Shown piece after piece: positions 12,033-55,662 of a DNA stretch of 64,000 nt. This DNA comes from Kushneria pakistanensis (GTDB taxonomy: Bacteria > Pseudomonadota > Gammaproteobacteria > Pseudomonadales > Halomonadaceae). Position numbers and translations under genes: made by a program. The stretch is from contig NZ_BMZM01000003.1 of the NCBI RefSeq assembly GCF_014652795.1, positions 248,001-312,000 of the forward strand. The letters run 5' to 3'. The number at the start of each line of letters is the position of its first letter. Positions within the stretch are counted from its first letter, which is position 1. The notes below the pieces were generated by a model. It was not told where the DNA came from, searched no databases, and saw only the letters and a list, made by a program, of their open reading frames with translations.

Positions 12033-12311
12033 GGCTCAACTTTAGTAGTATTGCTACATCTGCCAATGCTTTCATTTCTGAAAGCTTTGGCGGAAAAATG
12101 GCACTGTAAATAATAATGATTATTAACAAGTCATCAGTGCCTGAGACCAAGGTCTTATTGTGTCGCCTCGCCTGTCTCTAAAAATCCTTTTCTTTCAATT
12201 ATGTAAGTTTTGCCTTGCCGGTATCCGCCGCTCTAACCTCGCCTGATTGTTCTCCAGCCGGCCTGTGTGCCGGCAGCTTCCCATCATGACAACAAACGCT
12301 GGAGAGGAAAG
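12033..12311. promoter_or_regulatory. AT-rich upstream region of the citrate transporter with a Fur-like palindrome
   Basis: Intergenic stretch, clearly AT-richer than its surroundings, with no credible gene. It contains a perfect 7-1-7 palindrome, TAATAATGATTATTA (12111-12125), which differs from the Fur core TGATAAT-N-ATTATCA at one position per arm. A hexamer AATAAT (12112-12117), 5 of 6 to TATAAT, lies inside the palindrome, so binding there could block transcription. The leader to the start codon would be nearly 190 bases. Confidence 0.5.
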
Positions 12312-27484: not shown

Positions 27485-28116
27485 ACTGGGGCTGGGTGGC
27501 ATCCAACACGCACCAGATCACGGCGGCGTTGTTGCAGCATGTGCAGCTGGTGGGGCTCGCGCTGCTGTTCGGTTTTCTGATTGCCTTTCCGCTGGCACTG
27601 CTGGCGGTGCGCTGGCCAAGACTTTACGGCCCGTCGCTGGCCGTGACGGGGGTGATGTTCACCATTCCCTCTCTGGCGCTGTTCATTCTGCTGATGCCCT
27701 TTACCGGGCTTTCGATGGCCACCTCGCTGATCGGATTGACGATCTATACGCTGTTGATCCTCTTTCGCAATATTGTCCAGGGGCTGCGTGGCGTCTCGCC
27801 CAGCGTGCGCGAGGCGGCCAGGGCGCTGGGCTATACGCCGGCCCGGCGGCTCTTTACCGTGGAACTGCCGATTGCGCTGCCGGTGATCGTGGCCGGCATT
27901 CGCATTGCAGCGGTGACCATTATCGGCATGGTGACAGTGACCGCGCTGATCGGGCAGGGCGGGCTGGGGCAGCTCTTCATTACCGGCTTTACCCTGAGCT
28001 TTGCCACGCCCCTGGTCATCGGCTTTGTACTGTCGGTGATGCTGGCGGTCGCGGTGGATCTGGCGCTGGTGGGCATACAGTACTGGCTGACCCCATGGCA
28101 GCGGGGAGTGCGCTGA
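27481..28116 (+). CDS. Osmoprotectant ABC transporter, permease 1
   Basis: 211-residue inner-membrane permease with about six hydrophobic helices. The BPD-type cytoplasmic loop is EAARALGYTPARRLFTVELPIALPVIVAGIR, the EAA motif that contacts the ATPase (motif spans about residues 117-147). Size and pattern match OpuCB/YehW-type subunits. Start overlaps the ATPase stop (ATGA) and the end overlaps permease 2 (TGATG), so the genes are translationally coupled. Confidence 0.9.
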   Translation: MNWGWVASNTHQITAALLQHVQLVGLALLFGFLIAFPLALLAVRWPRLYGPSLAVTGVMFTIPSLALFILLMPFTGLSMATSLIGLTIYTLLILFRNIVQGLRGVSPSVREAARALGYTPARRLFTVELPIALPVIVAGIRIAAVTIIGMVTVTALIGQGGLGQLFITGFTLSFATPLVIGFVLSVMLAVAVDLALVGIQYWLTPWQRGVR

Positions 28117-28790
28117 TGAATAACGATGTCATGAGCCTGCTGGCGGGGGTGATCGACTTTTTTTCCCAGCCGATGAACTGGCAGGGCCCGGGCAGCATCC
28201 TGGCGCACATTACCGAGCACATCACCTATGTAGTGATCGCGACGCTGATCGGGGCGGCCATCGCGCTGCCTGTCGGGATCGGACTGGGACACAGTGGACG
28301 CGGCGGCCTGCTGGCGATCAATATTTCCAACATCGGCCGCGCCATCCCTTCCTTCGGGGTCATCATTCTGGTCTTTCTGCTGGCCGGTTTTGGGGTGATG
28401 CCGGTGATCGTGGCGCTGGTCGCGCTGGCGATCCCCCCGATGGTGACCAACAGCTTCGTGGGCATGCGCGAGGTGGACCCGGCCGTGCGTCAGGCGGCCG
28501 TGGCGCTCGGGATGACCGGCTGGCAACGGCTGTGGCAGGTGGAGCTGCCGATCGCCATGCCGCTGATCATGGCCGGGGTGCGAACATCTGCCGTGCAGGT
28601 CATGTCGACGGCCACGCTTGCCGCCTATGTAGGGCTCGGCGGGCTCGGGCGCTATCTGATCGATGGCCTGGCCGTGCGCGATCTCGCCCAGGTACTGGTT
28701 GGCGCGATTCTGGTCGCCGTGCTGGCCATGGCCACCGAACTTTTGTTTGCAGGCCTTCAGAAGCTGATCACGGCCAAAGGACTGCAATAA
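28116..28790 (+). CDS. Osmoprotectant ABC transporter, permease 2
   Basis: 224-residue paralogous permease of the OpuCD/YehY type. It has about five to six helices and an EAA loop (VRQAAVALGMTGWQRLWQVE) near the middle. The start at 28116 overlaps the preceding stop by one base and has GGGGAG upstream; the in-frame extension to 28095 lies inside permease 1 and is ignored. Two permeases plus one ATPase indicate a heterodimeric membrane channel. Confidence 0.9.
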   Translation: MNNDVMSLLAGVIDFFSQPMNWQGPGSILAHITEHITYVVIATLIGAAIALPVGIGLGHSGRGGLLAINISNIGRAIPSFGVIILVFLLAGFGVMPVIVALVALAIPPMVTNSFVGMREVDPAVRQAAVALGMTGWQRLWQVELPIAMPLIMAGVRTSAVQVMSTATLAAYVGLGGLGRYLIDGLAVRDLAQVLVGAILVAVLAMATELLFAGLQKLITAKGLQ

Positions 28791-28877
28791 CGCCATGAGG
28801 GCAATGGCAGGATGCATGAGGCGCCGGTCTGGGCCAGAATCGAGAGACCCACGACGACCAACAAGGGAATGAGTGTC

Positions 28878-29858
28878 ATGACAAAAGGGATCGGGATGAT
28901 GAAGATGGGCAGCAGCTGGAAGCTGGGACTGGGCGCGCTGGCGCTGGTCGGGCTGGCGGGTTGCTCCGGCGGCGATGATGACACTGCCGGCAATGACACC
29001 ACCCAGACCGGTGGCAATGATCAGGCAAGCCTGACCATTGGCTCGACCAACTTCCCCGAGCAGCTGATTCTGGCCAACATCTACGCGGATGTGCTTGAAG
29101 GGGATGGGGTCAATGTGAGTACGCGCCTCAATCTGGGCTCGCGCGAGGTGGTCTTCCCGGCGCTGACCAATGGCGAAATCGATCTGCTGCCGGACTATAC
29201 CGGCGCGCTGATGACCTATCTCGATCAGGATGAGGCGCATGCCGACGCCCGCAACGAGGAAGATGTCATGGCGGCCCTGCGTGACGTCCTGCCTGACGGG
29301 CTCGAGGCGCTGGACGCCTCGCCGGCAGAAGATCGCGACGCGCTCGTGGTCACGCGTGAGACGGCCGAGAAATACAACCTTGAAACCTTTTCCGATCTGG
29401 CGCCGGTCTCCGGTGAGCTGACCATCGGCGCGCCACCGGAAACGCGCACCCGTGATGTGGGTCTCCCCGGGCTCAAGCGGGTCTATGGCATCGAGTTTGC
29501 CAATTTCCGCTCCCTCGATGCCGGCGGGCCGCTGACCCGTGGCGCGCTGGCCAATGGCGATATCGACGTGGCGCGCATGTTCTCCTCCCAGGGAGCGATC
29601 GCTGAAAACAACTGGGTCGCACTACGTGATGACAAGAATCTGGAGCCGGCTCAGAACATCGTGCCGATCGCCCGCAGTGAGGCGCTGACCGATGAGATGC
29701 GTGACAGCCTCAATCGCGTATCAGCCGCGCTGACCACGGAAGATCTACAGGCCATGAACCACCGCGTCGAGATCGACAAGGAAGACCCGGCGCAGGTCGC
29801 CAGTGAGTGGGTGGATGAACACATGCAGGAAATCCAGCAGGGCGTAGACGCGCACTAG
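28878..29858 (+). CDS. Osmoprotectant ABC transporter, substrate-binding lipoprotein
   Basis: 326 residues. A lipoprotein signal peptide ends in the lipobox LAGC (acylated Cys29), then an acidic, Asn/Thr-rich linker and a type-II periplasmic-binding fold starting at LTIGSTNFPEQLILANIYADVLE. This start, the GEIDLLPDYTGAL segment and the LNRVSAALTTEDLQAMN C-terminus are typical of the OpuAC/OsmF/YehZ family that binds quaternary ammonium compounds. AAGGGA (28863-28868) supports ATG 28878. Being an anchored lipoprotein in a Gram-negative is mildly unusual. The acidic surface fits a halophile. The operon ends at the terminator at 29885. Confidence 0.88.
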   Translation: MTKGIGMMKMGSSWKLGLGALALVGLAGCSGGDDDTAGNDTTQTGGNDQASLTIGSTNFPEQLILANIYADVLEGDGVNVSTRLNLGSREVVFPALTNGEIDLLPDYTGALMTYLDQDEAHADARNEEDVMAALRDVLPDGLEALDASPAEDRDALVVTRETAEKYNLETFSDLAPVSGELTIGAPPETRTRDVGLPGLKRVYGIEFANFRSLDAGGPLTRGALANGDIDVARMFSSQGAIAENNWVALRDDKNLEPAQNIVPIARSEALTDEMRDSLNRVSAALTTEDLQAMNHRVEIDKEDPAQVASEWVDEHMQEIQQGVDAH

Positions 29859-34428: not shown

Positions 34429-35598
34429 TTAGGGCTTGAGCACCACCTTGATGCAGCCGTCCTGTTTTTCCCGGAAGGTTTTATACATGTCCGGCCCCTG
34501 GTCGAGTCCCATCGAGTGGGTAATGACAAACGACGGATCGATCTGGCCATCATCGATACGCGCCAGCAGGTCATCGGCCCAGCGCTTGACGTGGGTCTGA
34601 CCGGTGCGCACCGTCAGGCCCTTGTTCATCAGCGCCCCCACTGGAATCTTGTCGACCAGCCCGCCGTAGACGCCCGGAATCGAGATCACGCCGGCCGGAC
34701 GGCAGACATAGATCATCTCGCGCAGTACATGGGCGCGATCACTTTCCAGCATCACGGCCTGCTTGACCCGGTCATAGACGCTGTCCAGCGAGCGGGTGGC
34801 ATGGGCTTCAAGGCCTACCGCATCGATGCACTTCTCGGGGCCCTTGCCGCGGGTCAGCTCATTGAGCCGCTCCAGCACGCTTTCATCATCAAAGTTGATC
34901 GTGGTGGCACCGCCGGCGCGGGCCATGGCCAGCCGCTCGGGGACGTTGTCGATCATGATGATCTGCTCGGCGCCCAGCATGATGGCGCTGCGCACGCAGA
35001 ACTGACCCACCGGGCCGGCACCCCAGATGGCCACGGTATCGGTGGGCTGGATGTCGCACTGCACCACGGCCTGCCAGCCGGTGGGGAAGATGTCTCCGAG
35101 AAACAGTACCTGCTCATCGGTGAGCGTATCCGGCACCTTGATATGGGTGTGATCGGCAAAGGGCACACGCACGTATTCGGCCTGGCCGCCGGCGTAGCCG
35201 CCGGTAAGGTGTGAGTACCCAAACAGCCCGGAACCGGCGTGACCGAAGGCCGTGTCCGCGAGTGCGCGGTTGCGGTTGGAGCGTTCGCAGACCGAGAAGT
35301 TGCCGCGACGACACTGCTCGCATTCCCCGCAGGTGATGGTAAAGGGCACCACGATCCGGTCGCCGACCTTGAGATTGCGCGTCTCGCTGCCGACTTCCAT
35401 CACCTCGCCCATGAACTCGTGACCCAGCACGTCGCCGGATTCCATGGCCGGAATGAAGTGATCATACAGGTGCATGTCGGAGCCGCAGATGGCGCAGCTG
35501 CTGACATTGACGATGGCGTCGCGTGCATCCTCGATGGTGGGGTCGGGTACCGTGTCGTAACGAACATCATTCTTGCCGTGCCAGCAGAGTGCTTTCAT
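34429..35598 (-). CDS. Zinc-dependent alcohol dehydrogenase, formaldehyde dehydrogenase-like subgroup
   Basis: 389-residue MDR-family enzyme. Catalytic-zinc ligands Cys38 (CAICGSD) and His60-Glu61 (GHE), and structural-zinc cysteines 90, 93, 96 and 104 (CGECEQC...C), are all present. The NAD site is [17 protein letters not shown]. The pattern is that of the glutathione-independent formaldehyde dehydrogenase / threonine dehydrogenase-like group ([34 protein letters not shown]). Substrate unknown; detoxification of aldehydes or alcohols is likely. GGAGG is well spaced before the ATG. A 7-bp inverted repeat (35638-35654) lies 40 bases upstream. Confidence 0.88.
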
Positions 35599-43913: not shown

Positions 43914-44032
43914 GGGGGCTCCTGAAGCTGTTCTCTTGGGAACGTCATGAGGTGTGGAAAGTATCGGGGCTGCTTGAGTCATACCAGCTTCGGGTGCATC
44001 GTCGCAAAACACAATGCAAAGGGAGAACCATC

Positions 44033-44959
44033 TTGTCAGCAACCATCGCGCTTATGGGTGAGTGCATGATCGAAATGCACGGCCGGCCAGGGCAGTCCGT
44101 CCATCAGACCTTCGGTGGCGACAGCTTCAATACGGCGGCCTATCTGGCCCGCCTTGCAGGCTCATCGCTGAAGGTGGAGTACGTCACGGCGCTGGGCACC
44201 GACAGCTTCAGCCAGGCCATGCGTGAGCGCTTTGCCCGGGAAGGCGTGGGCACCGACAATGTCAGAACCCTTGAGTCGCGTCTGCCGGGGCTTTATTTCA
44301 TCGAAACCGATGAGGCAGGCGAGCGGCGCTTTCACTACTGGCGCAGCGAGGCCGCAGCCCGCTTCATGTTCGATGGCGAGGAAGGCGAGCAGTTGCTCCA
44401 GAGTCTGGCACACTGCGACACGCTCTATCTCAGCGGCATCAGCCTGGCCATTCTGACCGGCGAGGGGCGCGAGCGGCTGCTGGCGGGGCTGCCCGCACTG
44501 CGCGAGCGCGGCGTACGGGTTGTCTTTGACAACAACTACCGCCCCAGGCTCTGGCCGGACGTCGATGACGCCCGCCAGGCGCACGAAGCCCTGCTGGCCC
44601 AGGTGGATCTGGCCATTGTCACCTTTGAGGATGACCAGGCGCTGTTTGGTTTTGAAACGCCCGAGGCCCTGTTTGATTTTTATCATGAGCAGGGTGTCAG
44701 CGAGATCGTGATCAAGCGCGGTGCCGAAAGCTGTCTCATCGAACATGAAGGCAGGCGCCATGAGGTAGCCGGTGAGCGTGTCGACAAGGTGGTGGATACG
44801 ACCGCGGCGGGGGACTCCTTCAGCGCCGGCTATCTGGCCTGCCGTCTGACCGGCGGTGATGTGGAACAGGCCGCCCGCTGGGGACACCGGCTGGCTGGCA
44901 CCGTGATCGGCCATCGCGGCGCCATTATTGATGCTCAATACATGCCTGACATGCCCTGA
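44033..44959 (+). CDS. kdgK: 2-dehydro-3-deoxygluconokinase
   Basis: 308-residue PfkB-family kinase that phosphorylates 2-keto-3-deoxygluconate to KDPG, ready for the Entner-Doudoroff aldolase. The sequence has MGECMIE, FGGDSFNTAAYLARL (27-41), VTALGTDSFSQAM, LPGLYFIETDEAGERRF and the ATP/catalytic motif DTTAAGDSFSAG (255-266, catalytic Asp261). These match E. coli KdgK. The start is TTG at 44033, supported by AAGGGAGA (44018-44025) seven bases upstream; the in-frame extension to 43907 overlaps the divergent HAD gene. It shares a terminator with dps. Confidence 0.95.
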   Translation: MSATIALMGECMIEMHGRPGQSVHQTFGGDSFNTAAYLARLAGSSLKVEYVTALGTDSFSQAMRERFAREGVGTDNVRTLESRLPGLYFIETDEAGERRFHYWRSEAAARFMFDGEEGEQLLQSLAHCDTLYLSGISLAILTGEGRERLLAGLPALRERGVRVVFDNNYRPRLWPDVDDARQAHEALLAQVDLAIVTFEDDQALFGFETPEALFDFYHEQGVSEIVIKRGAESCLIEHEGRRHEVAGERVDKVVDTTAAGDSFSAGYLACRLTGGDVEQAARWGHRLAGTVIGHRGAIIDAQYMPDMP

Positions 44960-45756: not shown

Positions 45757-47325
45757 TCAGATCAGGAGGGTCGGCAGCCATACGCTGAACCCGACGATAG
45801 CCACAAAAAATACGCCCAGCGTTGCGACCGTGGGCATGTGCAGATCCAGCACGGCGTCGGGCATGACATCGCTGTGCGTGCGGCGATGCGTCACGGCGCT
45901 CACTATCAGCGCCACCACCAGCATGGTGACTGCCCCGGTCACGTTCCACCAGAACCAGAAAAGCTCCGGCACGTAAAGCCACAGGAAGGCATTGAGCGCC
46001 ACGCCGGCCACCAGCCCGCAGTTGGCCCCTGTCCCGTTGATACGCCGAATCAGAATGGCGGCCAGAAAGGTCGCCAGCATCGGTCCGAAAAAGAGTGAGC
46101 CGACCTTGTTGATCGCCTCGATGATGGTCGAGGCGATATTGCCGGTAAAAAAGGCCAGCGCAATGCAGACTACGCCCCAGAACACCGAGGTGAGGCGCGA
46201 CAGACGCATATAGCGTTTTTCATCGATGTGGCGCCCGCGCACGAACAGATCCTCGACGCTGGCCGCCGAGAGCGAATTGATCGCCGAGCTGACCGAGGAC
46301 ATGGCCGCCGAGAAAATCGCCACGATCAGGATGCCGGTCAGCCCGGCAGGCAGGTAGTCACGCATGAACAGCGGGACCATCAGGTCCGGCTCGTCCTCGG
46401 GCACCAGTGCGCGAAATTCCGGATGCGTGATGGCAAACGTGCCCAGCACCAGCCCGAGCAGGCAGTAGCACAGCGTGACCGGAAAGCGCAGCAGCCCGTT
46501 GGCCAGCAGGGTATGACGCACGGTGCGCGCGTTGCGGGCGGACAAAAGCCGCTGGGCCTGGCTCTGATCGGCGCCGTAATAGGCGGCGTAAAGGAAAAGG
46601 CCGCCGATGACCATGGGCCAGAAGCCAAAGCCGTTGCTGTCCTGGCCGATGCCAAAATCATCAAAGCGCACGGTTTCAAGACGCGCCGGGTCGACATTGG
46701 CCATGAAGACGTCCCAGCCACCGATCAGGGACAGGGCAAACACCAGGCAGACCACCAGCCCGATCACCAGCAGAATCATCTGGATGACATCGCCATAGAC
46801 CACCGCCTTCATGCCGCCCTGGCAGGCGTAGACCAGCGTGACGACGCCGATCACCACGATGGTGGCCCACAGCGGCAGACCGATGGCGTGGGTGAGAATC
46901 AATGCAATGGCGTAGACCATCACGCTGGTGGCGAAGGCGCGCGAAAGCTGAAAGACAAGACTCAAAAGGATACGGGTGCTGCGGCCGAAGCGTTTTTCCA
47001 GGTAGCCATAGATACTGACCACGCCGGCTGCGTAAAGCGTCGGAAAAAAGAGCACGATGAGCGCAATCATCGCCAGCGGTACGGCGAATTCATAGGTTAG
47101 CCATATCAGACCCCCGCCTTCCTTCATGCCGACAAAGGCGGGCGCCGAGATGAAACTCACCGCCGACAGCTGCGTGGCGGCAGCGGACAGTGACAGTGGA
47201 AACCAGCCAAAGCCCCGGCTGCCCAGAAAGTAGTCCTCGCCGGAGTGCTGTTGCCTGAAAAGTTGCCCCAGCAGCAAAAAGCCGCCCAGATATAGCGCAA
47301 TCACCACGTAATCCAGCCAGGCCAT
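45757..47325 (-). CDS. Sodium:solute symporter (SSS family)
   Basis: 522-residue inner-membrane protein with about 13 helices. SSS features include the SLSAAATQLSAVSFISAPAFVG segment near residue 50 and GYLEKRFGRSTRILLS in an early loop. The AMSSVSSAINSLSAASVEDLF block (sodium-site helix) lies near 340, and GANCGLVAGVALNAFLW late. It matches SLC5-type sugar/organic-acid carriers. Located downstream of the UxuR-type regulator on the same strand, so it may import a uronate or related sugar acid. ATG 47325 has GGGAGG at good spacing and is preferred over GTG 47331. Confidence 0.85.
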   Translation of the reverse strand: MAWLDYVVIALYLGGFLLLGQLFRQQHSGEDYFLGSRGFGWFPLSLSAAATQLSAVSFISAPAFVGMKEGGGLIWLTYEFAVPLAMIALIVLFFPTLYAAGVVSIYGYLEKRFGRSTRILLSLVFQLSRAFATSVMVYAIALILTHAIGLPLWATIVVIGVVTLVYACQGGMKAVVYGDVIQMILLVIGLVVCLVFALSLIGGWDVFMANVDPARLETVRFDDFGIGQDSNGFGFWPMVIGGLFLYAAYYGADQSQAQRLLSARNARTVRHTLLANGLLRFPVTLCYCLLGLVLGTFAITHPEFRALVPEDEPDLMVPLFMRDYLPAGLTGILIVAIFSAAMSSVSSAINSLSAASVEDLFVRGRHIDEKRYMRLSRLTSVFWGVVCIALAFFTGNIASTIIEAINKVGSLFFGPMLATFLAAILIRRINGTGANCGLVAGVALNAFLWLYVPELFWFWWNVTGAVTMLVVALIVSAVTHRRTHSDVMPDAVLDLHMPTVATLGVFFVAIVGFSVWLPTLLI

Positions 47326-47507
47326 GCCCACCTCCCGTCATGGGCAGCGCCATGACGCTGCCGATCATCCGTATTGGTGTTGTTATCTGACGCGCCGCGT
47401 GCAGTACCGGACGCAGGCGTGTTCGTGCTGTCGCTATCTACATTAGGTCAGATGCATGGGGCTGGCGACCCGGGGGTGGGCCGTAATTCATGAACCGGCA
47501 GGGAAGA

Positions 47508-48281
47508 TCAGGAGGAGGGAGACTCGATGCCGCGAGTGAAGAGATAGCCGTCAAAGCCCGGGTCATCGGTATCGGAATGGGTAAACAGCGTATGCATCAC
47601 ATGGTCAATGTGGGCCCACATTGCGTCATGGGCGCCGGCGCTGTCGCGTTTTTTGAGGCAGGCCAGAATACGGTCATGATCAGCCAGCCAGCTGCGACGA
47701 TAGGAGAAGTCCATGATGCGCCCATGCAGGCGACGCCACATGTGGCTGCGATCGCGCTGTTCCCAGAGTCGGAGAACGGCGTCTTCCAGCAGGGTGTTCT
47801 GAGTGGCGCGGGCAATCAGCAGATGAAAGGCCTGGTCGGCCTGATCGGGGGCGTTGGTCAGCTCCTGCCCGCCGGTGGAAGTCTCCAGCGCCTGGCGCTC
47901 CTGGGCCAGTAGCGCCGACAGGGCACGAATATCGCTCGGTGTGACCAGTTCGGCGGCGGCCGCGGCCACGGCGCTTTCCACCACCTGGCGCGCCTTCAGA
48001 AGCTCGAAGGGGCCGATATCCTCGACAGGACCGGGGGAGGATGGCGCTGTCGGGCGTGCCGGCCTCTCGTCGGGACGGCAGACATAGGTCCCCGAGCCCT
48101 TGCGTACCTCCACGCGGCCGGCCAGCTCCAGCATGATAAAGGCCTCGCGTACCACCGTGCGGCTGACATCAAAGCGCTCGGCGTATTCACGTTCGGTGGG
48201 CAGCCTGTCCCCGGGGTGATAGCCGTCGCGGTCGATCTGCTCACCGATCTGCTCGCCAATGATCTGATACTGTCGGCGCAT
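47508..48281 (-). CDS. uxuR: GntR/FadR family regulator, UxuR/ExuR-like
   Basis: 257 residues. The N-terminal winged helix-turn-helix has GDRLPTEREYAERFDVSRTVVREAFIMLELAGRVEVRKGSGTYV (motif region about residues 24-67); the C-terminal all-helical FCD ligand domain begins near 88 and contains HMWRRLHGRIMDFSYRRSWLADHDRIL. FadR-type regulators with this layout, UxuR and ExuR, repress hexuronate genes until fructuronate or a similar ligand binds. The assignment is supported by divergent manD and by three UxuR-like boxes between them. No DNA-binding data are available. Confidence 0.85.
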   Translation of the reverse strand: MRRQYQIIGEQIGEQIDRDGYHPGDRLPTEREYAERFDVSRTVVREAFIMLELAGRVEVRKGSGTYVCRPDERPARPTAPSSPGPVEDIGPFELLKARQVVESAVAAAAAELVTPSDIRALSALLAQERQALETSTGGQELTNAPDQADQAFHLLIARATQNTLLEDAVLRLWEQRDRSHMWRRLHGRIMDFSYRRSWLADHDRILACLKKRDSAGAHDAMWAHIDHVMHTLFTHSDTDDPGFDGYLFTRGIESPSS

Positions 48282-48346: not shown

Positions 48347-48364
48347 TTTCTGGTATGCCAATTT
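48347..48364. promoter_or_regulatory. UxuR-like operator box 1
   Basis: TTTCTGGTATGCCAATTT; nearest to the uxuR start. The perfect right half CCAATTT agrees with the consensus. Confidence 0.6.
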
Positions 48365-48440: not shown

Positions 48441-48474
48441 GGTGTATACCAATGTCTATTTGGTATGCCAATCA
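48441..48474. promoter_or_regulatory. UxuR-like operator boxes 2 and 3
   Basis: Two adjacent boxes, GGTGTATACCAAT and TTTGGTATGCCAAT. Centres are about 19 bases apart, the spacing expected for two dimers on the same face of DNA. Confidence 0.6.
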
Positions 48475-48522: not shown

Positions 48523-49734
48523 ATGAAGATTGTTGATGCGCGCGTCATCGTGACCTGCCCGGGGCGAAATCTGGTCACGCTGAAGATTGAAACCGATGAA
48601 GGCATCTACGGCATCGGCGATGCCACGCTTAACGGCCGGGAACTGGCGGTTGTCGCCTATCTCGAGGAGCACGTGGCGCCGGCGCTGATCGGACGTGATC
48701 CCTCCACCATCGAGGACATCTGGCAGTTCTTCTATCGCGGCGCCTACTGGCGCCGTGGCCCGGTCACCATGTCGGCGATCGGGGCGGTGGACATGGCGCT
48801 GTGGGACATCATGGGCAAGGCCGCCGGCCTGCCGCTCTACAAGCTGCTGGGGGGCAAAAGCCGTGATCGGGTCATGGTCTACGGCCACGCCACCGGCCAC
48901 GACATCGAGGGCTGTCTGGAAGAGGTCGCCCGTCATGTCGAGCTGGGCTATCGCGCCGTACGCGTACAGTGCGGCATTCCCGGTATTGCCTCCACCTATG
49001 GGGTGGCCAAAAAGCCCGGCGAGCGTTATGAACCGGCCGACTCAAGCCTGCCGAGTGAAAACGTCTGGAGCACCTCGAAGTATCTCAACCATGTGCCCAA
49101 GCTCTTCCAAGCCGTGCGCGAGCGCTTCGGCGACGACCTGCATGTCCTGCACGACGTGCACCACCGCCTGACGCCCATCGAGGCGGCGCGGCTGGGCAAG
49201 GAAGTCGAGCCCTATCATTTGTTCTGGCTCGAGGACTGCGTGCCGGCCGAAAACCAGGCTGCCTTTCGCATGATCCGCCAGCACACCACCACGCCGCTGG
49301 CGGTGGGCGAGGTGTTCAACTCCATTCACGACTGTCGTGAGCTGATCGAGTCGCAGTCGATCGACTATATCCGCGCCACCCTGACCCATGCCGGCGGTAT
49401 CACCCATGTGCGCCGCATCGCGGCACTGGCCGAGCTGTACCACGTGCGCACCGGTTTTCACGGGCCGACCGATCTCTCCCCGGTCTGCATGGGCGCGGCG
49501 CTGCATTTCGATACCTGGGTGCCCAACTTCGGTATTCAGGAGCACATGCCGCACAGCGAGGAAACCGACGCTGTCTTCCCGCATGCCTATCGCTTCGAGG
49601 ATGGCCATTTCACGCCGGGTGAAGTGCCCGGCCACGGCGTGGATATCGACGAGGCCCTGGCGGCGAAATACCCCTACAAGCGCGCCAGCCTGCCGGTCAA
49701 TCGGCTCGAGGATGGCACGCTCTGGCACTGGTAG
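48523..49734 (+). CDS. manD: D-mannonate dehydratase, ManD type (enolase superfamily)
   Basis: 403 residues. The enolase-superfamily fold has an N-terminal capping domain and a TIM barrel. Residues matching the NaManD active site are Arg147 (YRAVRVQ), Tyr159 (STYGV), and the metal ligands Asp211 (with His213 in DVHHRL), Glu237 (WLED) and Glu263 (GEVF). It dehydrates D-mannonate to 2-keto-3-deoxygluconate; a close Chromohalobacter enzyme is characterised. It is the first gene of the operon manD-dctPQM-uxuB-uxuA and lies divergent from uxuR. UxuA, an unrelated enzyme for the same reaction, is also in this operon. Confidence 0.93.
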
Positions 49735-49846
49735 GCCGATGGCGTCCTGCTTGAAAGGGAGCAGGGCGATAGATAAGGGCTGCCGGGCAGCCGATGATCC
49801 CAACGCTGGATTTTGAATCGGGGCCCAGGCCCTGAAGGAGCAAGGT

Positions 49847-50845
49847 ATGTCGATGCGTCAATTGTCTCGCCTGCGTCTGTCGCAGCTCATCAGTGCCGGC
49901 GTGCTGGCCGCCGGCGTTCTGGCCATGGCCACACCGGTACAGGCCGCCGATTACACGCTGAAGTTCGGCCACCTGGCCAACGAGCAGAACATCTGGAACA
50001 AGGCCGCCATGCACTTCAAGGAGGCGGTCGAGAAAAACTCCGACGGTCGCATCGAAGTGCAGGTCTATCCCAATGAGCAGCTGGGCAACGAGATGGACAT
50101 GATCAACTCCATCCAGCTGGGCACGGCAGATATCACCATTACCGGGGAGAGCCTGCAGAACTGGGCACCCAAGGCGGCCATGATGGCCGTGCCCTATGCC
50201 TTCCGCGACAGCGAGCAGCTCGAAAAGGCGGTTGACGGTGACATCGGCAGCGAGATCGAGGCGCAGATCACCGAGCGCACCGGCCTGGTACCGCTGACCT
50301 GGTTCGAGCGCGGGGCACGCGAGCTGACCGCCAATCGTGAAATCAGAACACCCGATGATCTGAAGGGCCTGCGTCTGCGCGTGCCCAACGTGCCACTGTT
50401 TGTCGATACCTGGCAGGCACTGGGGGCACGCCCCACGCCCATGGCCTTCAGCGAAGTATTTACCTCGCTGCAGCAGGGCACCATCGATGCGCAGGAAAAC
50501 CCGCTGTCGCTGATCGAAAGCGCCAGTCTTTCCGAGGTGCAAAAGGTCGTCAACATGACCGACCACGTCAGAAGCTGGATCTATGTCGTGATCGGCAAGC
50601 GCCAGCTCGAAGGCATGCCGGATGACCTGCAAAAGGTGGTGCGTGACGCCGCCGGCGACATGCAGAGCTATGAGCGCGAGCTTTTCGCCGAAGACCAGAA
50701 GCGCCTTGAAAAAGCGCTCAAGGACAAGGGCATGACCTTTGTCGAGGTCGACACCGACGCCTTCGCCAAAAAGGCCATGCCGGCCATCAAAAAGGCGCTT
50801 GACCCCGAGCAGACCGAGCTTCTCGAGCGCATCGAAAAGCTCTGA
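49847..50845 (+). CDS. TRAP transporter substrate-binding protein (DctP type)
   Basis: 332 residues with a cleavable signal peptide (hydrophobic SAGVLAAGVLAMATPVQA, cleavage near residue 33). The mature part starts ADYTLKFGHLANEQNIWN, typical of DctP. The ligand-site region is LKGLRLRVPNVPLFVDTWQALGARPTPMAFSEVFTSLQQGTIDAQENP, with the arginine of LRLRVP (near residue 180) positioned as in TRAP acid-binding sites. Its operon places it with manD, uxuB and uxuA, so a hexuronate such as glucuronate or galacturonate is a strong inference. Confidence 0.92.
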   Translation: MSMRQLSRLRLSQLISAGVLAAGVLAMATPVQAADYTLKFGHLANEQNIWNKAAMHFKEAVEKNSDGRIEVQVYPNEQLGNEMDMINSIQLGTADITITGESLQNWAPKAAMMAVPYAFRDSEQLEKAVDGDIGSEIEAQITERTGLVPLTWFERGARELTANREIRTPDDLKGLRLRVPNVPLFVDTWQALGARPTPMAFSEVFTSLQQGTIDAQENPLSLIESASLSEVQKVVNMTDHVRSWIYVVIGKRQLEGMPDDLQKVVRDAAGDMQSYERELFAEDQKRLEKALKDKGMTFVEVDTDAFAKKAMPAIKKALDPEQTELLERIEKL

Positions 50846-50940
50846 GGGCTGTCGGCTCGTCTTCGAGTCATGGGTAAATCGCTGATCCTCACGCCCCTTG
50901 TGCATCGTGCTCAAGGGGCGTGACAGCAGGGAGAGACAAC

Positions 50941-51534
50941 GTGAGTGACACTGAAAAGCGGGCCAGCGAGGCGCTGGAAGCACTCGATGTGCTGGGTCGT
51001 GTACCGCGCTTGGGCGGGATGCTCGGCAGCCTGGTCAACGTCATGGATCGAATACTGGCAACGGTGGCCGGTCTGATACTGGTCACCATTGCCGGCGTGG
51101 TGATCCTGCAGATTCTGGGGCGTCTGGTGCTGCCGGCTGCCCCGGTCTGGACCGAGGAGCTGTCACGCTATCTCTTTATCATGATGATTGCCGTCAGCGC
51201 AGGCCTGGTCATGCGCCGCGGCAAGCACATCAGCCTGGAACTTTTTCATCATCGCTTCGGCGTGCGGGGCGCCTGTCTCTATCAGCTATTGATCAGCGTG
51301 GTGCTGGCAGGCTTTGCCTGGGTAATCCTGCCCTATGCCTGGCAGTACGCCAGCATCGGCGCCTTTCAGACATCGCCGGCACTCAAGGTGTCGATGCAGT
51401 GGATCTTTGGCGCCACCGTGGTGCTGTTCGCCATGGTCATCCTGTACGGCGTGATCGGTGCCATCGAGGCCGTGGCCGGACTTCTGGGCCTGTCCCGTCA
51501 CGACAAAGCAGCGCCTGGCGGCGAGCGGAGGTAG
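50941..51534 (+). CDS. TRAP transporter small permease (DctQ type)
   Basis: 197-residue membrane protein with four hydrophobic segments (AGLILVTIAGVVILQ, LFIMMIAVSAGLVM, LLISVVLAGFAWVIL, VVLFAMVILYGVIGA). Typical of DctQ: the WTEELSRYLFI segment after the first helix. The start is GTG 50941, preceded by GGGAGAG (50930-50936); the extension to 50920 has no start signal. It partners DctM to form the membrane complex. Four bases from the dctM start. Confidence 0.9.
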   Translation: MSDTEKRASEALEALDVLGRVPRLGGMLGSLVNVMDRILATVAGLILVTIAGVVILQILGRLVLPAAPVWTEELSRYLFIMMIAVSAGLVMRRGKHISLELFHHRFGVRGACLYQLLISVVLAGFAWVILPYAWQYASIGAFQTSPALKVSMQWIFGATVVLFAMVILYGVIGAIEAVAGLLGLSRHDKAAPGGERR

Positions 51535-51538
51535 CACC

Positions 51539-52825
51539 ATGGAAGTATTAATGCTGTTTGCGGTGTTTTTTGTACTGCTGTTTGCCGGTATTCCGATCGC
51601 CTTTGCCCTGGGGATCTCGTCGGCGGCCTATCTCCTTACGGCTGGTATTCCGCTGACCATCGTGCCCCAGCGCATGTTTGCCGGCATGGATTCCTTTGTT
51701 TTGCTGTGTATTCCGGGCTTCATTCTGGCCGGTAACCTGATGAACGTGGGCAACATCACCGAGCACATCGTGCGTTTTTCCAACGCCGTGGTCGGTCATA
51801 TCCGCGGCGGGCTGGGCCTTGCCAACGTGGGCGGCTCGATGATCTTTGGCGGCATCTCCGGCACCGCCGTGGCTGATGCGGCAAGCGTGGGTTCGGTCAT
51901 GATTCCCGGCATGGCAAAGGCTGGCTATGACAAGCCCTTTGCCGCGGCCGTCACCGCCGCCTCCTCAACGATCGGGCCGATTATCCCGCCCAGCGTACCG
52001 ATGATCATTGTCGGTTCGCTGTCCGGTATTTCAGTCGGGCGCATGTTCATGGCAGGCGTGGTGCCGGGCATTCTGCTGGCACTCGGGATGATGATCACGG
52101 TCTACGTGCTGGCGGTCAAAAGAGGCTATCCGAAGGAGAAGCGCGCCACGCTCAAGGAGATTCTGGTGGAGGGCAAGAGCGCGTTTTGGGCGCTGTTGAT
52201 GACCTTTATCATTCTCTACGGGATCATCGGCGGCTTCTTTACACCGACCGAGGCCTCGATCGTGGCGTGTCTCTACGCCATGGTGGTGGGCATGTTCGTC
52301 TACAAGGGGCTGAACTGGCGTAACCTGCCAAAGCTTTTTGTCGATGCCGCCCTGACGTCTGCTGCCCTGATGATGCTGGTGGGACTGGCCAATCTGTTTG
52401 GCTGGATTCTGACCAGCGAGCGCATCCCGCAGATGATTGCCGACGGCATCCTGGGGATCAGCGAGAACCCGCTGATGGTGATCCTGATTCTCAACCTGAT
52501 CCTTTTGTTTGTCGGCACCTTCATGGAAACCATCGCGGCACTGATCATCCTGTTTCCGGCGCTGCTGGGCGTGGCGACCGGCGTCGGGGTCGACCCGGTG
52601 CACTTTGGCATCATGGCGGTACTGAATCTGATGATCGGGCTGACCACGCCGCCGGTAGGCATCTGTCTGTTCGTGGTGTCGGGGATTGGCGAGATCCGCA
52701 TGAGCCAGGTCGCCCGCGCCATCATCCCGTTTCTGCTCTGCAACCTCGCGGTGCTGGGGCTGGTGATGTACATCCCGGCCATCTCGCTGTGGCTGCCCAA
52801 TCTGGTCATGGGACCGGCAGGATAA
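51539..52825 (+). CDS. TRAP transporter large permease (DctM type)
   Basis: 428-residue inner-membrane protein, about 12 helices. It starts at ATG 51539 with GGAGG seven bases upstream, as in most DctM proteins (MEVLMLFAVFFVLLF). Diagnostic segments include GGSMIFGGISGTAVADAASVGS, ASSTIGPIIPPSVPMII and FFTPTEASIVACLYAM, plus FGIMAVLNLMIGLTTPPVGICLFV. It uses a Na+ gradient in characterised systems. It follows dctQ immediately and precedes uxuB by 44 bases. Confidence 0.93.
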   Translation: MEVLMLFAVFFVLLFAGIPIAFALGISSAAYLLTAGIPLTIVPQRMFAGMDSFVLLCIPGFILAGNLMNVGNITEHIVRFSNAVVGHIRGGLGLANVGGSMIFGGISGTAVADAASVGSVMIPGMAKAGYDKPFAAAVTAASSTIGPIIPPSVPMIIVGSLSGISVGRMFMAGVVPGILLALGMMITVYVLAVKRGYPKEKRATLKEILVEGKSAFWALLMTFIILYGIIGGFFTPTEASIVACLYAMVVGMFVYKGLNWRNLPKLFVDAALTSAALMMLVGLANLFGWILTSERIPQMIADGILGISENPLMVILILNLILLFVGTFMETIAALIILFPALLGVATGVGVDPVHFGIMAVLNLMIGLTTPPVGICLFVVSGIGEIRMSQVARAIIPFLLCNLAVLGLVMYIPAISLWLPNLVMGPAG

Positions 52826-52869
52826 CGGGGCGTTTCGGAAGTGCAGACGCCACAGACAAGGAGAGATTA

Positions 52870-54369
52870 ATGAGCCCATCCGACCATCAGGACGCCATTG
52901 AGGCGGTACGTATTCCATCCGAACACGCGCCCGGGCGTATTGGCATCGTGCACCTGGGGCTGGGCGCCTTTCACCGGGCGCATCAGGCGCAGGTGGTCGA
53001 GCAGTGCATCGCGCGTGGCGAGCGTGAGTGGGGCATCTGCAGCGTCAATATCCGCGGCAATCGCGCGCTGGTTGAGACCCTGCGTGATCAGGGATTTCGC
53101 TACCATCTGGCCGAATATACCGACCGCGCCCATGTCACCCTGCGCGAGATTCGTGCGATTAATGAGACGCTGTTTACCGGCACCGATGCGCAGGGCCTGC
53201 GCGGCGAGGATCTCCCCGCGCTGCTGTCGCGCCTGAGCGATGCAGATACCCGCATCGTGACGCTGACGGTGACCGAAAAGGGCTATTACCTGAGCCCCAG
53301 CGAAGGCACGCTCCTGAGTGACGATCCGGCCATTGCCGCCGACATCGCCCAGCCGCAGGCGCCTCGCACGGCGCCGGGCATTCTGGTCGAGGCGCTGGCT
53401 CGGCGTCGACAGGCCGGCATTGCGCCTTTCACGGTGCTCTCCTGTGACAACATGCCGGACAATGGCGAACGCACCCGGCGCGCCGTGGTGGCGCTGGCCG
53501 AACGGCGGGATACCGAGCTTGCCGAGTGGATCGCCACCCAGGTGGCCTTTCCCTCCAGTATGGTGGATCGCATCGTGCCGGCCATGGACGAGGAGGCCTT
53601 CGCTCGTTTGCAGGCGCTGGGCTGTGACGACCCGGCGGCCGTGGTCAGCGAGGCCTTTTTGCAGTGGGTGATCGAGGATCACTTTCCGCAGGGTAGGCCC
53701 GACTGGGCACAGGCCGGCGTCGAGATGGTCGAGGACGTGGCACCGTTCGAGACCATGAAACTTCGCATGCTCAACGGCGCGCACTCGCTTTTGGCCTATA
53801 CCGGCCCCTTGATGGGCGTAGAGACGGTGGCCGAAGCGGTACAGGATCCGCTGCTGCAAAAGCTTTTGCGCCGCTACATGCTGGAAGAAGCCGCACCGAC
53901 CCTGTCGATGCCGGAGAGCGTGTCGCTTGACGGTTACGCCGACGCGCTGATGGCGCGTTTTGGCAACGACAGCCTGCGTCACCGGCTCCACCAGATCGCG
54001 ATGGACGGCTCGCAGAAGCTGCCCCAGCGCTGGCTGCGCGGTGGCGAGGCGCGTCTGGCCGCCAGTGATGATGAGCATGCGTTGGCCGCCACCGTGTTTG
54101 GCGTGGCCGCCTGGATTCGCTATACCCGCGGCGTTGACGAGCAGGGCCAGGCGTATCCGGTCAGTGATCCGATGTCCGAGCAGTTGGCGCAGTGTCATGC
54201 TCATGAGCGCAGCGCCGATCGGGCAGCGGCCGCCATGGCGATCGAGGCGATCTTCTCGCCGGCACTGGTGAGCGCGCCGCGCTTTGGTCAGCAGGTGCAA
54301 AAGGCGCTGGAGGCGATCGAGCATCTCGGCATGCGCGCAGCTCTTGAGCAGCATCTGGCGAACGTCTGA
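52870..54369 (+). CDS. uxuB: Fructuronate reductase (mannitol dehydrogenase family)
   Basis: 499-residue polyol-type long-chain dehydrogenase. The Rossmann start is IGIVHLGLGAFHRAHQAQV, followed by GICSVNIRGN; conserved C-terminal catalytic segment is ETMKLRMLNGAHSLLAY with the catalytic Lys in MKLRMLNGAH. It reduces D-fructuronate to D-mannonate with NADH. The mannitol dehydrogenase family also includes mannitol and tagaturonate enzymes; the operon with manD and uxuA favours fructuronate reductase. The start at 52870 has GGAGAG at five bases. Confidence 0.9.
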   Translation: MSPSDHQDAIEAVRIPSEHAPGRIGIVHLGLGAFHRAHQAQVVEQCIARGEREWGICSVNIRGNRALVETLRDQGFRYHLAEYTDRAHVTLREIRAINETLFTGTDAQGLRGEDLPALLSRLSDADTRIVTLTVTEKGYYLSPSEGTLLSDDPAIAADIAQPQAPRTAPGILVEALARRRQAGIAPFTVLSCDNMPDNGERTRRAVVALAERRDTELAEWIATQVAFPSSMVDRIVPAMDEEAFARLQALGCDDPAAVVSEAFLQWVIEDHFPQGRPDWAQAGVEMVEDVAPFETMKLRMLNGAHSLLAYTGPLMGVETVAEAVQDPLLQKLLRRYMLEEAAPTLSMPESVSLDGYADALMARFGNDSLRHRLHQIAMDGSQKLPQRWLRGGEARLAASDDEHALAATVFGVAAWIRYTRGVDEQGQAYPVSDPMSEQLAQCHAHERSADRAAAAMAIEAIFSPALVSAPRFGQQVQKALEAIEHLGMRAALEQHLANV

Positions 54370-54428
54370 ACGGGTTTCAGGATTTGCCGGGGAGTTTTCA
54401 CGGTTTACGCTACAGGGAGAACAAGGGC

Positions 54429-55610
54429 ATGGAACACACCTGGCGCTGGTTCGGCCCCGATGATCCGGTCACGCTATCCGAGATTCGCCAGGCCGGGGCC
54501 ACTGGCATCGTTACCGCGCTGCACGGCCACGATCCACGCACGCCCTGGTCGGTGGAGGCCATTGTCGAGCGAAAGGCGCTGATCGAGGCGGCGGGGCTGT
54601 CGTGGTCAGTGGTGGAAAGCGTGCCGGTGCCGGAGGCGATCAAGCAGGCGCTGGATACGACAGCGCGCGATCGGGCCATCGAGGTGTTTTGCACAACGCT
54701 GGAAAACCTGGCGGCCTGCGGTATCGACACGGTGTGCTACAACTTCATGCCGATTCTGGACTGGACGCGCACCGAGCTTGCATGGCCCACCGACACCGGG
54801 GGGCTGGCACTACGCTTTGACCAGACCACCTTCGCTGCCTTCGAGCTTTTCATTTTAAAGCGTCCCGGCGCCGAGTCACTCTACAGCCCTGATGAGCAGG
54901 CCGCGGCGCGTCGATGTTTTGAACGCATGGATGACGAGGCACAAAAGCGGCTGGTCACCACGCTGATCGCCGGACTGCCGGGCGCGGATCAGCACTACAC
55001 CCTGGCGCAGTTTCTCGAAAACCTTCGCGCCTATGAGGCCATCGACGCGGAACGATTGCGAAGCAACTATCGCCACTTTCTACAGAAGGTAGTGCCGGTT
55101 GCCGAGCGGCTGGGCATGCGGCTGGCGGTGCATCCCGATGACCCGCCGCGCCCGCTTTTGGGACTGCCCCGGATCGTGTCGACGGCCGAGGACGCCCGCT
55201 GGGTGCTCGATCAGATCAAAAGCCCGGCCAACGGCCTGACATTTTGCACCGGCTCCTATGGCGTGCGCGAGGACAACGATCTCATCGCCATGGCGCGTGA
55301 GTTCGCACCGCACATTCATTTCGTGCATCTGCGCGCTACTCGGCGCGACGCGGATGACCCCCTGAGTTTTATCGAGGCGGAGCATCTGGATGGCGATGTC
55401 GATATGGTCGGCGTGATCGGCGAGCTGGTAAAAGAAGAGCGCCGCCGGCTTGAGGAGGGCGGTGCTCGACTGCCGATGCGACCCGATCATGGTCACATGC
55501 TCTGTGACGATATCAGGCGCACCACCAATCCCGGCTATCCGCTGATCGGACGTCTCAAGGGGCTGGCCGAGCTGCGCGGTGTGGAGTGCGCCGTTCGCCG
55601 CTTCTGCTGA
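54429..55610 (+). CDS. uxuA: Mannonate dehydratase, UxuA type
   Basis: 393 residues, close in length and sequence to E. coli UxuA (394). It is a TIM-barrel enzyme of the xylose-isomerase-like superfamily. Visible blocks: EHTWRWFGPDDPV at the start, VTALHG, WSVVESVPV, CYNFMPILDWTRTEL, LAVHPDDPPRPLLGLPRIVST, FCTGSYGVREDNDL, MRPDHGHMLCDD and the end LKGLAELRGVE. It is unrelated in fold to ManD, 5 kb upstream in the same operon, though both dehydrate D-mannonate. It ends the operon. Confidence 0.95.
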   Translation: MEHTWRWFGPDDPVTLSEIRQAGATGIVTALHGHDPRTPWSVEAIVERKALIEAAGLSWSVVESVPVPEAIKQALDTTARDRAIEVFCTTLENLAACGIDTVCYNFMPILDWTRTELAWPTDTGGLALRFDQTTFAAFELFILKRPGAESLYSPDEQAAARRCFERMDDEAQKRLVTTLIAGLPGADQHYTLAQFLENLRAYEAIDAERLRSNYRHFLQKVVPVAERLGMRLAVHPDDPPRPLLGLPRIVSTAEDARWVLDQIKSPANGLTFCTGSYGVREDNDLIAMAREFAPHIHFVHLRATRRDADDPLSFIEAEHLDGDVDMVGVIGELVKEERRRLEEGGARLPMRPDHGHMLCDDIRRTTNPGYPLIGRLKGLAELRGVECAVRRFC

Positions 55611-55637: not shown

Positions 55638-55662
55638 GCGCCGGGTTCTGCCCGGCGCTTTT
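55638..55662 (+). terminator. Rho-independent terminator after uxuA
   Basis: 8-bp GCGCCGGG/CCCGGCGC stem (55638-55645 with 55651-55658) and a T4 tail. Confidence 0.85.

Follow-up and report, generated by a model that had tools for sequence, protein, structure and literature searches.

In Haemophilus, GulD, UxuB and UxuA act in series (PMC5788505, in the part of that paper available to us), and the Halomonas strains HL-48 and HL-93 carry a conserved predicted locus homologous to the L-gulonate pathway of Chromohalobacter salexigens (PMC5507952, likewise a partial text). Here we consider a putative operon of Kushneria pakistanensis on a stretch of 64,000 nucleotides (positions 248,001 to 312,000 of contig NZ_BMZM01000003.1, assembly GCF_014652795.1; hereafter the window), which encodes two mannonate dehydratases of unrelated families, ManD and UxuA, together with UxuB and a TRAP transporter. 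Two 2014 papers by Wichelecki and others reportedly place high-efficiency ManDs in genomes without UxuA and low-efficiency ManDs in genomes with it. This work is also said to have described the L-gulonate pathway of C. salexigens and to have found no role for the low-efficiency ManDs, which were reportedly interpreted, in a tentative way, as relics or starting points. What is new here is that in Kushneria neither GulD nor UxaC was found, yet ManD appears to be under strong selection; the pairing of manD with uxuA is usual in ManD-bearing relatives and is already known and studied. We lean, with modest confidence, towards an aldonate operon in which UxuA would be the main mannonate dehydratase and ManD a slower dehydratase of mannonate and gluconate.

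Two dehydratases in one putative operon

Between 48523 and 55610 on the + strand, the genes follow in the order manD, TRAP P, TRAP Q, TRAP M, uxuB and uxuA. Their reading frames are intact and, with the starts chosen here, the gaps from manD to uxuA are 112, 74, 4, 44 and 59 bases; same-strand order with gaps of 4 to 112 bases agrees with an earlier note on this DNA, which had described these genes as one putative operon, and co-transcription from manD to uxuA is likely. The same note had assigned the two dehydratases to different families, and each indeed exceeds its own curated cut-off: ManD (48523..49734, +), of the D-mannonate dehydratase subgroup of the enolase superfamily and with proline at residue 315, scores 747 bits against 550 for NF043051, and UxuA (54429..55610, +), a TIM-barrel enzyme, scores 521.7 bits against 199.55 for TIGR00695. 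Its statement that the ManD active site is complete also stands, with all seven expected residues (D211, E237, E263, R147, Y159, H213 and H313) present and invariant in 28 aligned proteins; we take the first three to be metal ligands and the other four to be catalytic. In UxuA, over residues 1-391 of which PDB entry 4eac can be aligned, H235, C273, H300 and D353 are invariant in 12 aligned proteins and presumably form the metal site, judging from the Streptococcus suis enzyme. UxuA residues 32-40 (54522-54548) read HGHDPRTPW in the window, in place of a HEIPNGEVW-like loop; the seven close Kushneria proteins, that of the window included, share HGH-P--PW, most aligned relatives have HEIPNGEVW or nearly so, and two distant Kushneria show intermediate forms. 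The uxuB-like gene (52870..54369, +, ATG at 52870) encodes a putative fructuronate reductase of the mannitol dehydrogenase family whose best NCBIfam match, PRK15037, gives 437.7 bits, below the cut-off of 603, as does the C. marismortui UxuB at 462.7 bits.

The earlier note had proposed comparing the occurrence of manD and uxuA across Halomonadaceae. We called both proteins at curated cut-offs in 201 genomes of this family, and pairing proved to be the usual state: ManD was over its cut-off in 114 genomes and UxuA in 123, with both in 112 and neither in 76, so that 112 of the 114 ManD genomes hold UxuA and, as a rule, ManD in Halomonadaceae does not make up for an absent UxuA. Where both genes occur, uxuA is found 3' of manD, no more than 12 kb away and on the same strand, in 102 of the 112 genomes, a shared order for which chance is no explanation; the remaining 10 all carry UxaC. 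UxuA without ManD was seen in 11 genomes, including one whose UxuA match is partial. The two genomes with ManD and no UxuA over the cut-off, G146 and G125, both have UxaC. At the G146 locus (L104) the order is uxaC-manD-uxuB followed by a frame that looks by eye like a Gfo/Idh oxidoreductase, and no UxuA match was found in that genome; at the G125 locus (L103), manD and uxuB are kept and uxuA is reduced to a 53-residue piece. These two may be natural cases of ManD as the sole mannonate dehydratase.

The window ManD shares 98% of its residues with the Kushneria phyllosphaerae protein, and its nearest solved structures by sequence are those of C. salexigens ManD (3ow1 among its entries), at about 80-81% identity over the whole length; by fold, this protein ties with one from Cellvibrio (Z 55.8 and 55.7). 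P317 of the C. salexigens enzyme, the position changed in mutant P317A (4k2s), aligns to P315 of the window protein, and many ManD structures carry magnesium in their PDB titles. The earlier suggestion that one of the two enzymes may really use a different sugar acid, for example gluconate, is in keeping with the close homologue C. salexigens ManD, for which PDB titles name both D-gluconate (3qke) and D-mannonate (4kpl). Among 80 related loci, residue 315 is proline in 33 and alanine in 47, with uxuA in the flanks of 27 of the former and 10 of the latter (some flanks are short, so that absence is weak evidence). As a marker of an adjoining uxuA, Pro-315 was rejected: alanine occurs at 10 of 37 uxuA-adjacent loci, and proline at 6 of the remaining 43. 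Overall identity of ManD divides the same loci more cleanly, with uxuA in the flanks of 37 of 44 at 76.5% or above and none of 36 below, at a divide picked after the list had been viewed.

Entry enzymes, import, regulation and selection

No match to the UxaC family PF02614 was found in the K. pakistanensis genome or in any of the nine other Kushneria genomes searched with it (10 of 10), uronate dehydrogenase and UxaE not having been searched for. UxaC is present in 30 of the 201 Halomonadaceae genomes, with no match in 171, and in some relatives, for example G104 and G146, uxaC lies directly 5' of manD. A zinc dehydrogenase gene of about 1 kb occupies the position directly 3' of manD in 40 of the 80 related loci, and its placement, read against the published pathway, makes gulD the probable identity; the C. 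marismortui copy has RspB (4ilk) as nearest solved relative and a Zn-dependent oxidoreductase family as best NCBIfam match (375.3 bits, cut-off 376). At E 1e-80, a GulD-like gene was found in 95 of the 201 genomes, including two in which the match is partial; all 95 also hold ManD and UxuA, and 73 lack UxaC. The label 'hexuronate operon' given by the earlier note therefore finds no support, considering these 73 genomes, the absence of UxaC from the K. pakistanensis genome and the other Kushneria, and the assignment of the homologous Halomonas locus to L-gulonate in the available part of PMC5507952; caution is warranted in applying it to such operons.

In all nine operon-bearing Kushneria, the TRAP genes follow directly 3' of manD with no gulD between them, the gap in the window being 112 bases. 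A short G+C-rich hairpin lies at 49778-49792, within this gap, where relatives carry gulD. At E 1e-80, GulD had no match in any of the 10 Kushneria genomes, and the best match by E-value in the K. pakistanensis genome is 33% identical. Relocation of GulD within the genome is not supported, as among the matches listed for the 10 Kushneria genomes identity reached at most 42% over short stretches and 35% over long ones, compared to 60-89% among complete operon copies with the query left out. The zinc dehydrogenase at 34429-35598 of the window is 24% identical to GulD. A non-homologous dehydrogenase could conceivably act in place of GulD. Outside Kushneria, ManD and UxuA without GulD and UxaC were found in three genomes, G016, G037 and G115. 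In G037, a dehydrogenase that its family matches place in the Ldh2 type is encoded between trapM and uxuB; Phytohalomonas (L004) has a gene similar by eye in the same position, plus gulD. Such an Ldh2-type gene, seen within the operon at L102:7570-8664, might represent a second kind of entry enzyme. As a substitute in Kushneria it was rejected, since its matches there are distant, none exceeding 36% identity, and confined to 7 of the 10 genomes.

We estimated the ratio of nonsynonymous to synonymous substitution rates (dN/dS) between the window and six close Kushneria for manD, trapP, trapM, uxuB and uxuA, trapQ being left out. The values are 0.021-0.042 for manD, 0.025-0.038 for trapM, 0.051-0.091 for trapP, 0.094-0.134 for uxuB and 0.113-0.139 for uxuA, so that manD and trapM are the most constrained of the five and uxuA has roughly three to six times the ratio of manD. 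Against the two distant Kushneria, L097 and L099, the ratios of all five genes are higher (0.093 and 0.113 for manD, 0.175 and 0.304 for uxuA) and, with dS of 0.63-1.74, less reliable.

The solute-binding subunit of the TRAP transporter, TRAP P (DctP family, 49847..50845, +; TIGR00787, 242.8 bits, cut-off 175.05), is by sequence nearest to PDB 4pc9/4pcd (335.8 bits, next chain 181.3). Its predicted fold (predicted local distance difference test score, pLDDT, 79.6) finds 4pcd, from Roseobacter denitrificans, first, with Z 34.8, a root-mean-square deviation of 3.0 over 298 aligned residues and 52% identity; 4p47 ties with it (Z 34.1). The ligands of 4pc9/4pcd are reportedly D-mannonate and L-galactonate. 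The available parts of PMC5812351 and PMC8276074 do not give the ligand of 4pcd, and the available part of PMC5788505 lists L-gulonate and D-mannonate as candidate ligands, from a screen, for the H. influenzae TRAP binding protein, which serves a UxuB-UxuA pathway. Our best guess for the substrate imported by the window's transporter is an aldonate, namely D-mannonate. The large permease, DctM, lies at 51539..52825 (+, ATG at 51539; TIGR00786, 431.1 bits, cut-off 268.45); the frame between the P and M subunits (50920..51534, +) is the probable small permease, Q, by this placement, with GTG start candidates at 50920, 50941 and 50989 and no NCBIfam match.

Divergent from manD is a uxuR-like gene for a GntR/FCD regulator (47508..48281, -), which matches PRK10225, the Uxu operon regulator, at 211.5 bits, below the cut-off of 442; a homologue has the same divergent position in all nine operon-bearing Kushneria, that of the window included. 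Motif scanning placed two UxuR-like sites on the + strand between the two genes: TTGGTATGCCAA at 48460..48471, 63 bases upstream of manD, and CTGGTATGCCAA, with one mismatch to it, at 48350..48361. When the 700 bases upstream of manD were scanned on one strand in 23 chosen loci, sites were present in seven (two Kushneria, Phytohalomonas and four Marinomonas), all of which have a divergent regulator at least 48% identical to that of the window, and loci L002 and L003 carry a TTGGTATGCCAA-type site at the same place. Because sites with up to two mismatches are not commoner in the window than in shuffled sequence (4, shuffled mean 3.69), the case for them is one of position and conservation only. 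The operon is probably under a UxuR-type regulator.

Possible roles of ManD beside UxuA

The aldonate operon that we prefer would serve six-carbon sugar acids and would probably be derived from the halomonad L-gulonate operon. Let us assume that the TRAP transporter imports an aldonate, perhaps D-mannonate. UxuA would then act as the main D-mannonate dehydratase, with 2-keto-3-deoxygluconate (KDG) as product, and UxuB would interconvert D-fructuronate and D-mannonate, while ManD, an enzyme of the C. salexigens type with proline 315, would slowly dehydrate D-mannonate and D-gluconate, also to KDG. Since it would take D-gluconate as well, slowly, ManD is probably no plain duplicate of UxuA. The KDG kinase KdgK and a 2-keto-3-deoxy-6-phosphogluconate (KDPG) aldolase would finish the route. 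The analysis establishes which genes are present, the families to which they belong, how conserved and constrained they are, and that the searches yielded no UxaC and no close GulD homologue; from these we infer the imported substrate, all of the activities, co-transcription and the split of labor. Several observations weigh against this scenario. The lack of a complete uxuA beside manD and uxuB in G146 and G125 hints that a ManD of this kind may be enough by itself; proline 315 does not track uxuA. The low efficiency assumed here is one reportedly described for C. salexigens ManD by Wichelecki 2014. With neither GulD nor UxaC, no source of fructuronate for UxuB can be named, and here the model leaves a gap. 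Finally, TRAP P is not close to the L-gulonate-binding 4pbq (145.5 bits, compared to 335.8 for 4pc9), and its nearest solved relative, with the reported ligands, is 52% identical.

If ManD and UxuA were instead true isozymes using different metals, UxuA iron and ManD magnesium, ManD could take over at low iron or under oxidant damage. The magnesium of the ManD structure titles, the strong constraint on ManD and the loss or truncation of uxuA beside a kept manD-uxuB in G146 and G125 would fit, as would the description of the classical D-mannonate dehydratase as iron-dependent in the available part of a review (PMC12076931). We nevertheless regard this as unlikely, as UxuA accompanies ManD in 112 of 114 genomes, so that ManD alone rarely suffices; the reported low efficiency of C. 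salexigens ManD would point the same way. Less probable still is an operon for glucuronate or galacturonate supplied by an isomerase unrelated to UxaC or through some other route: the combination of uxuB and uxuA with TTGGTATGCCAA sites and a regulator resembling UxuR does recall the classical hexuronate set, and uxaC does adjoin manD in G104 and G146, but UxaC is missing from Kushneria and most of the family in the search described above, most GulD genomes do without it, and the nearest relative of TRAP P is reportedly an aldonate binder.

That neither GulD nor UxaC was found in Kushneria could also mean that ManD survives as an evolutionary relic while the operon, its entry enzyme lost, decays, in line with the reported suggestion of relics or starting points. 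We consider this very improbable: dN/dS is far below 1 for all five genes, with manD among the two lowest, which argues against relic status, the frames in the window are intact, and L002 and L003 retain the operator-like site. The same loss of GulD and UxaC might rather have been followed by re-tasking of the Kushneria operon to direct uptake of D-mannonate, perhaps of a gluconate-like aldonate, with ManD becoming the most essential enzyme by handling both epimers, gluconate and mannonate, UxuA diverging, with replacement of the IPNGE-type loop, and UxuB working oxidatively or on another sugar acid; this we hold to be a doubtful but conceivable outcome, on a par with isozymes. Irrespective of the details, a ManD of the type whose role its characterizers are said to have left open is highly constrained here and kept beside UxuA in nearly all ManD genomes. 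Natural experiments are at hand in a genus that yielded neither GulD nor UxaC and in the two genomes whose uxuA is missing or truncated; together with the constraint they put the role of ManD within reach of gene-deletion tests in halophiles that can be cultured.

Surrounding features and comparison with known systems

3' of uxuA is a hairpin resembling an intrinsic terminator (55638..55658, +), whose 9-pair stem runs into TTTT; the region holds 9 terminator-like sites and shuffled sequence 5.9 (standard deviation 2.3), only a mild excess. Near the operon and outside it is kdgK (43997..44959, +, start uncertain; NF052444, 407 bits, cut-off 400), and KDPG aldolase is encoded elsewhere in the genome. 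Beyond the UxuR-like regulator, a sodium/solute symporter gene is located at 45757-47331 on the - strand; it was found at 8 of the 9 Kushneria operon loci, partial at the end of the stretch in L094, with no match in L097. A 469-residue frame at 27831-29240 (-) has coding-like base use and no Pfam match at 1e-5.

Among the matches listed in our literature search, none concerned Kushneria with gulonate, mannonate or uxuA. The ManD of Novosphingobium (2qjj, 2qjn) belongs to the same subgroup and is about 70% identical, with alanine at position 314 (mutant A314P, 4k1w, by its title) in contrast to Pro-315 of the window, and the 36 loci on that side of the 76.5% divide show no uxuA in their flanks. 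The H. influenzae GulPQM-GulD-UxuB-UxuA system resembles the window in the logic of TRAP transporter, UxuB, UxuA and KdgK; it differs in that GulD supplies fructuronate and in that no ManD is named in the pathway in the available text (PMC5788505), and the window TRAP P resembles 4pc9/4pcd more than 4pbq. At a Pseudomonas locus (L005), a frame that looks by eye like an MFS-type transporter lies between gulD (ending at 12305) and uxuB (about 13700), in the TRAP position of halomonads.

Within the halomonads, the HL-48 and HL-93 locus unites catabolic enzymes, a TRAP transporter and a GntR regulator, as here; no ManD/UxuA split is named in the part of PMC5507952 available, 'uxuA' being absent from its main text, and the Kushneria form differs by having no GulD. 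C. marismortui (L012) shows the gene order of the window plus gulD, with a distant (31%) regulator match in + direction before manD, unlike the divergent UxuR-like regulator of the window. Compared to the C. salexigens L-gulonate locus, the window has manD directly followed by the TRAP genes, without an intervening gulD, and a close homologue of gulD was not found elsewhere either; the two ManDs, about 80-81% identical, carry proline at the same position.

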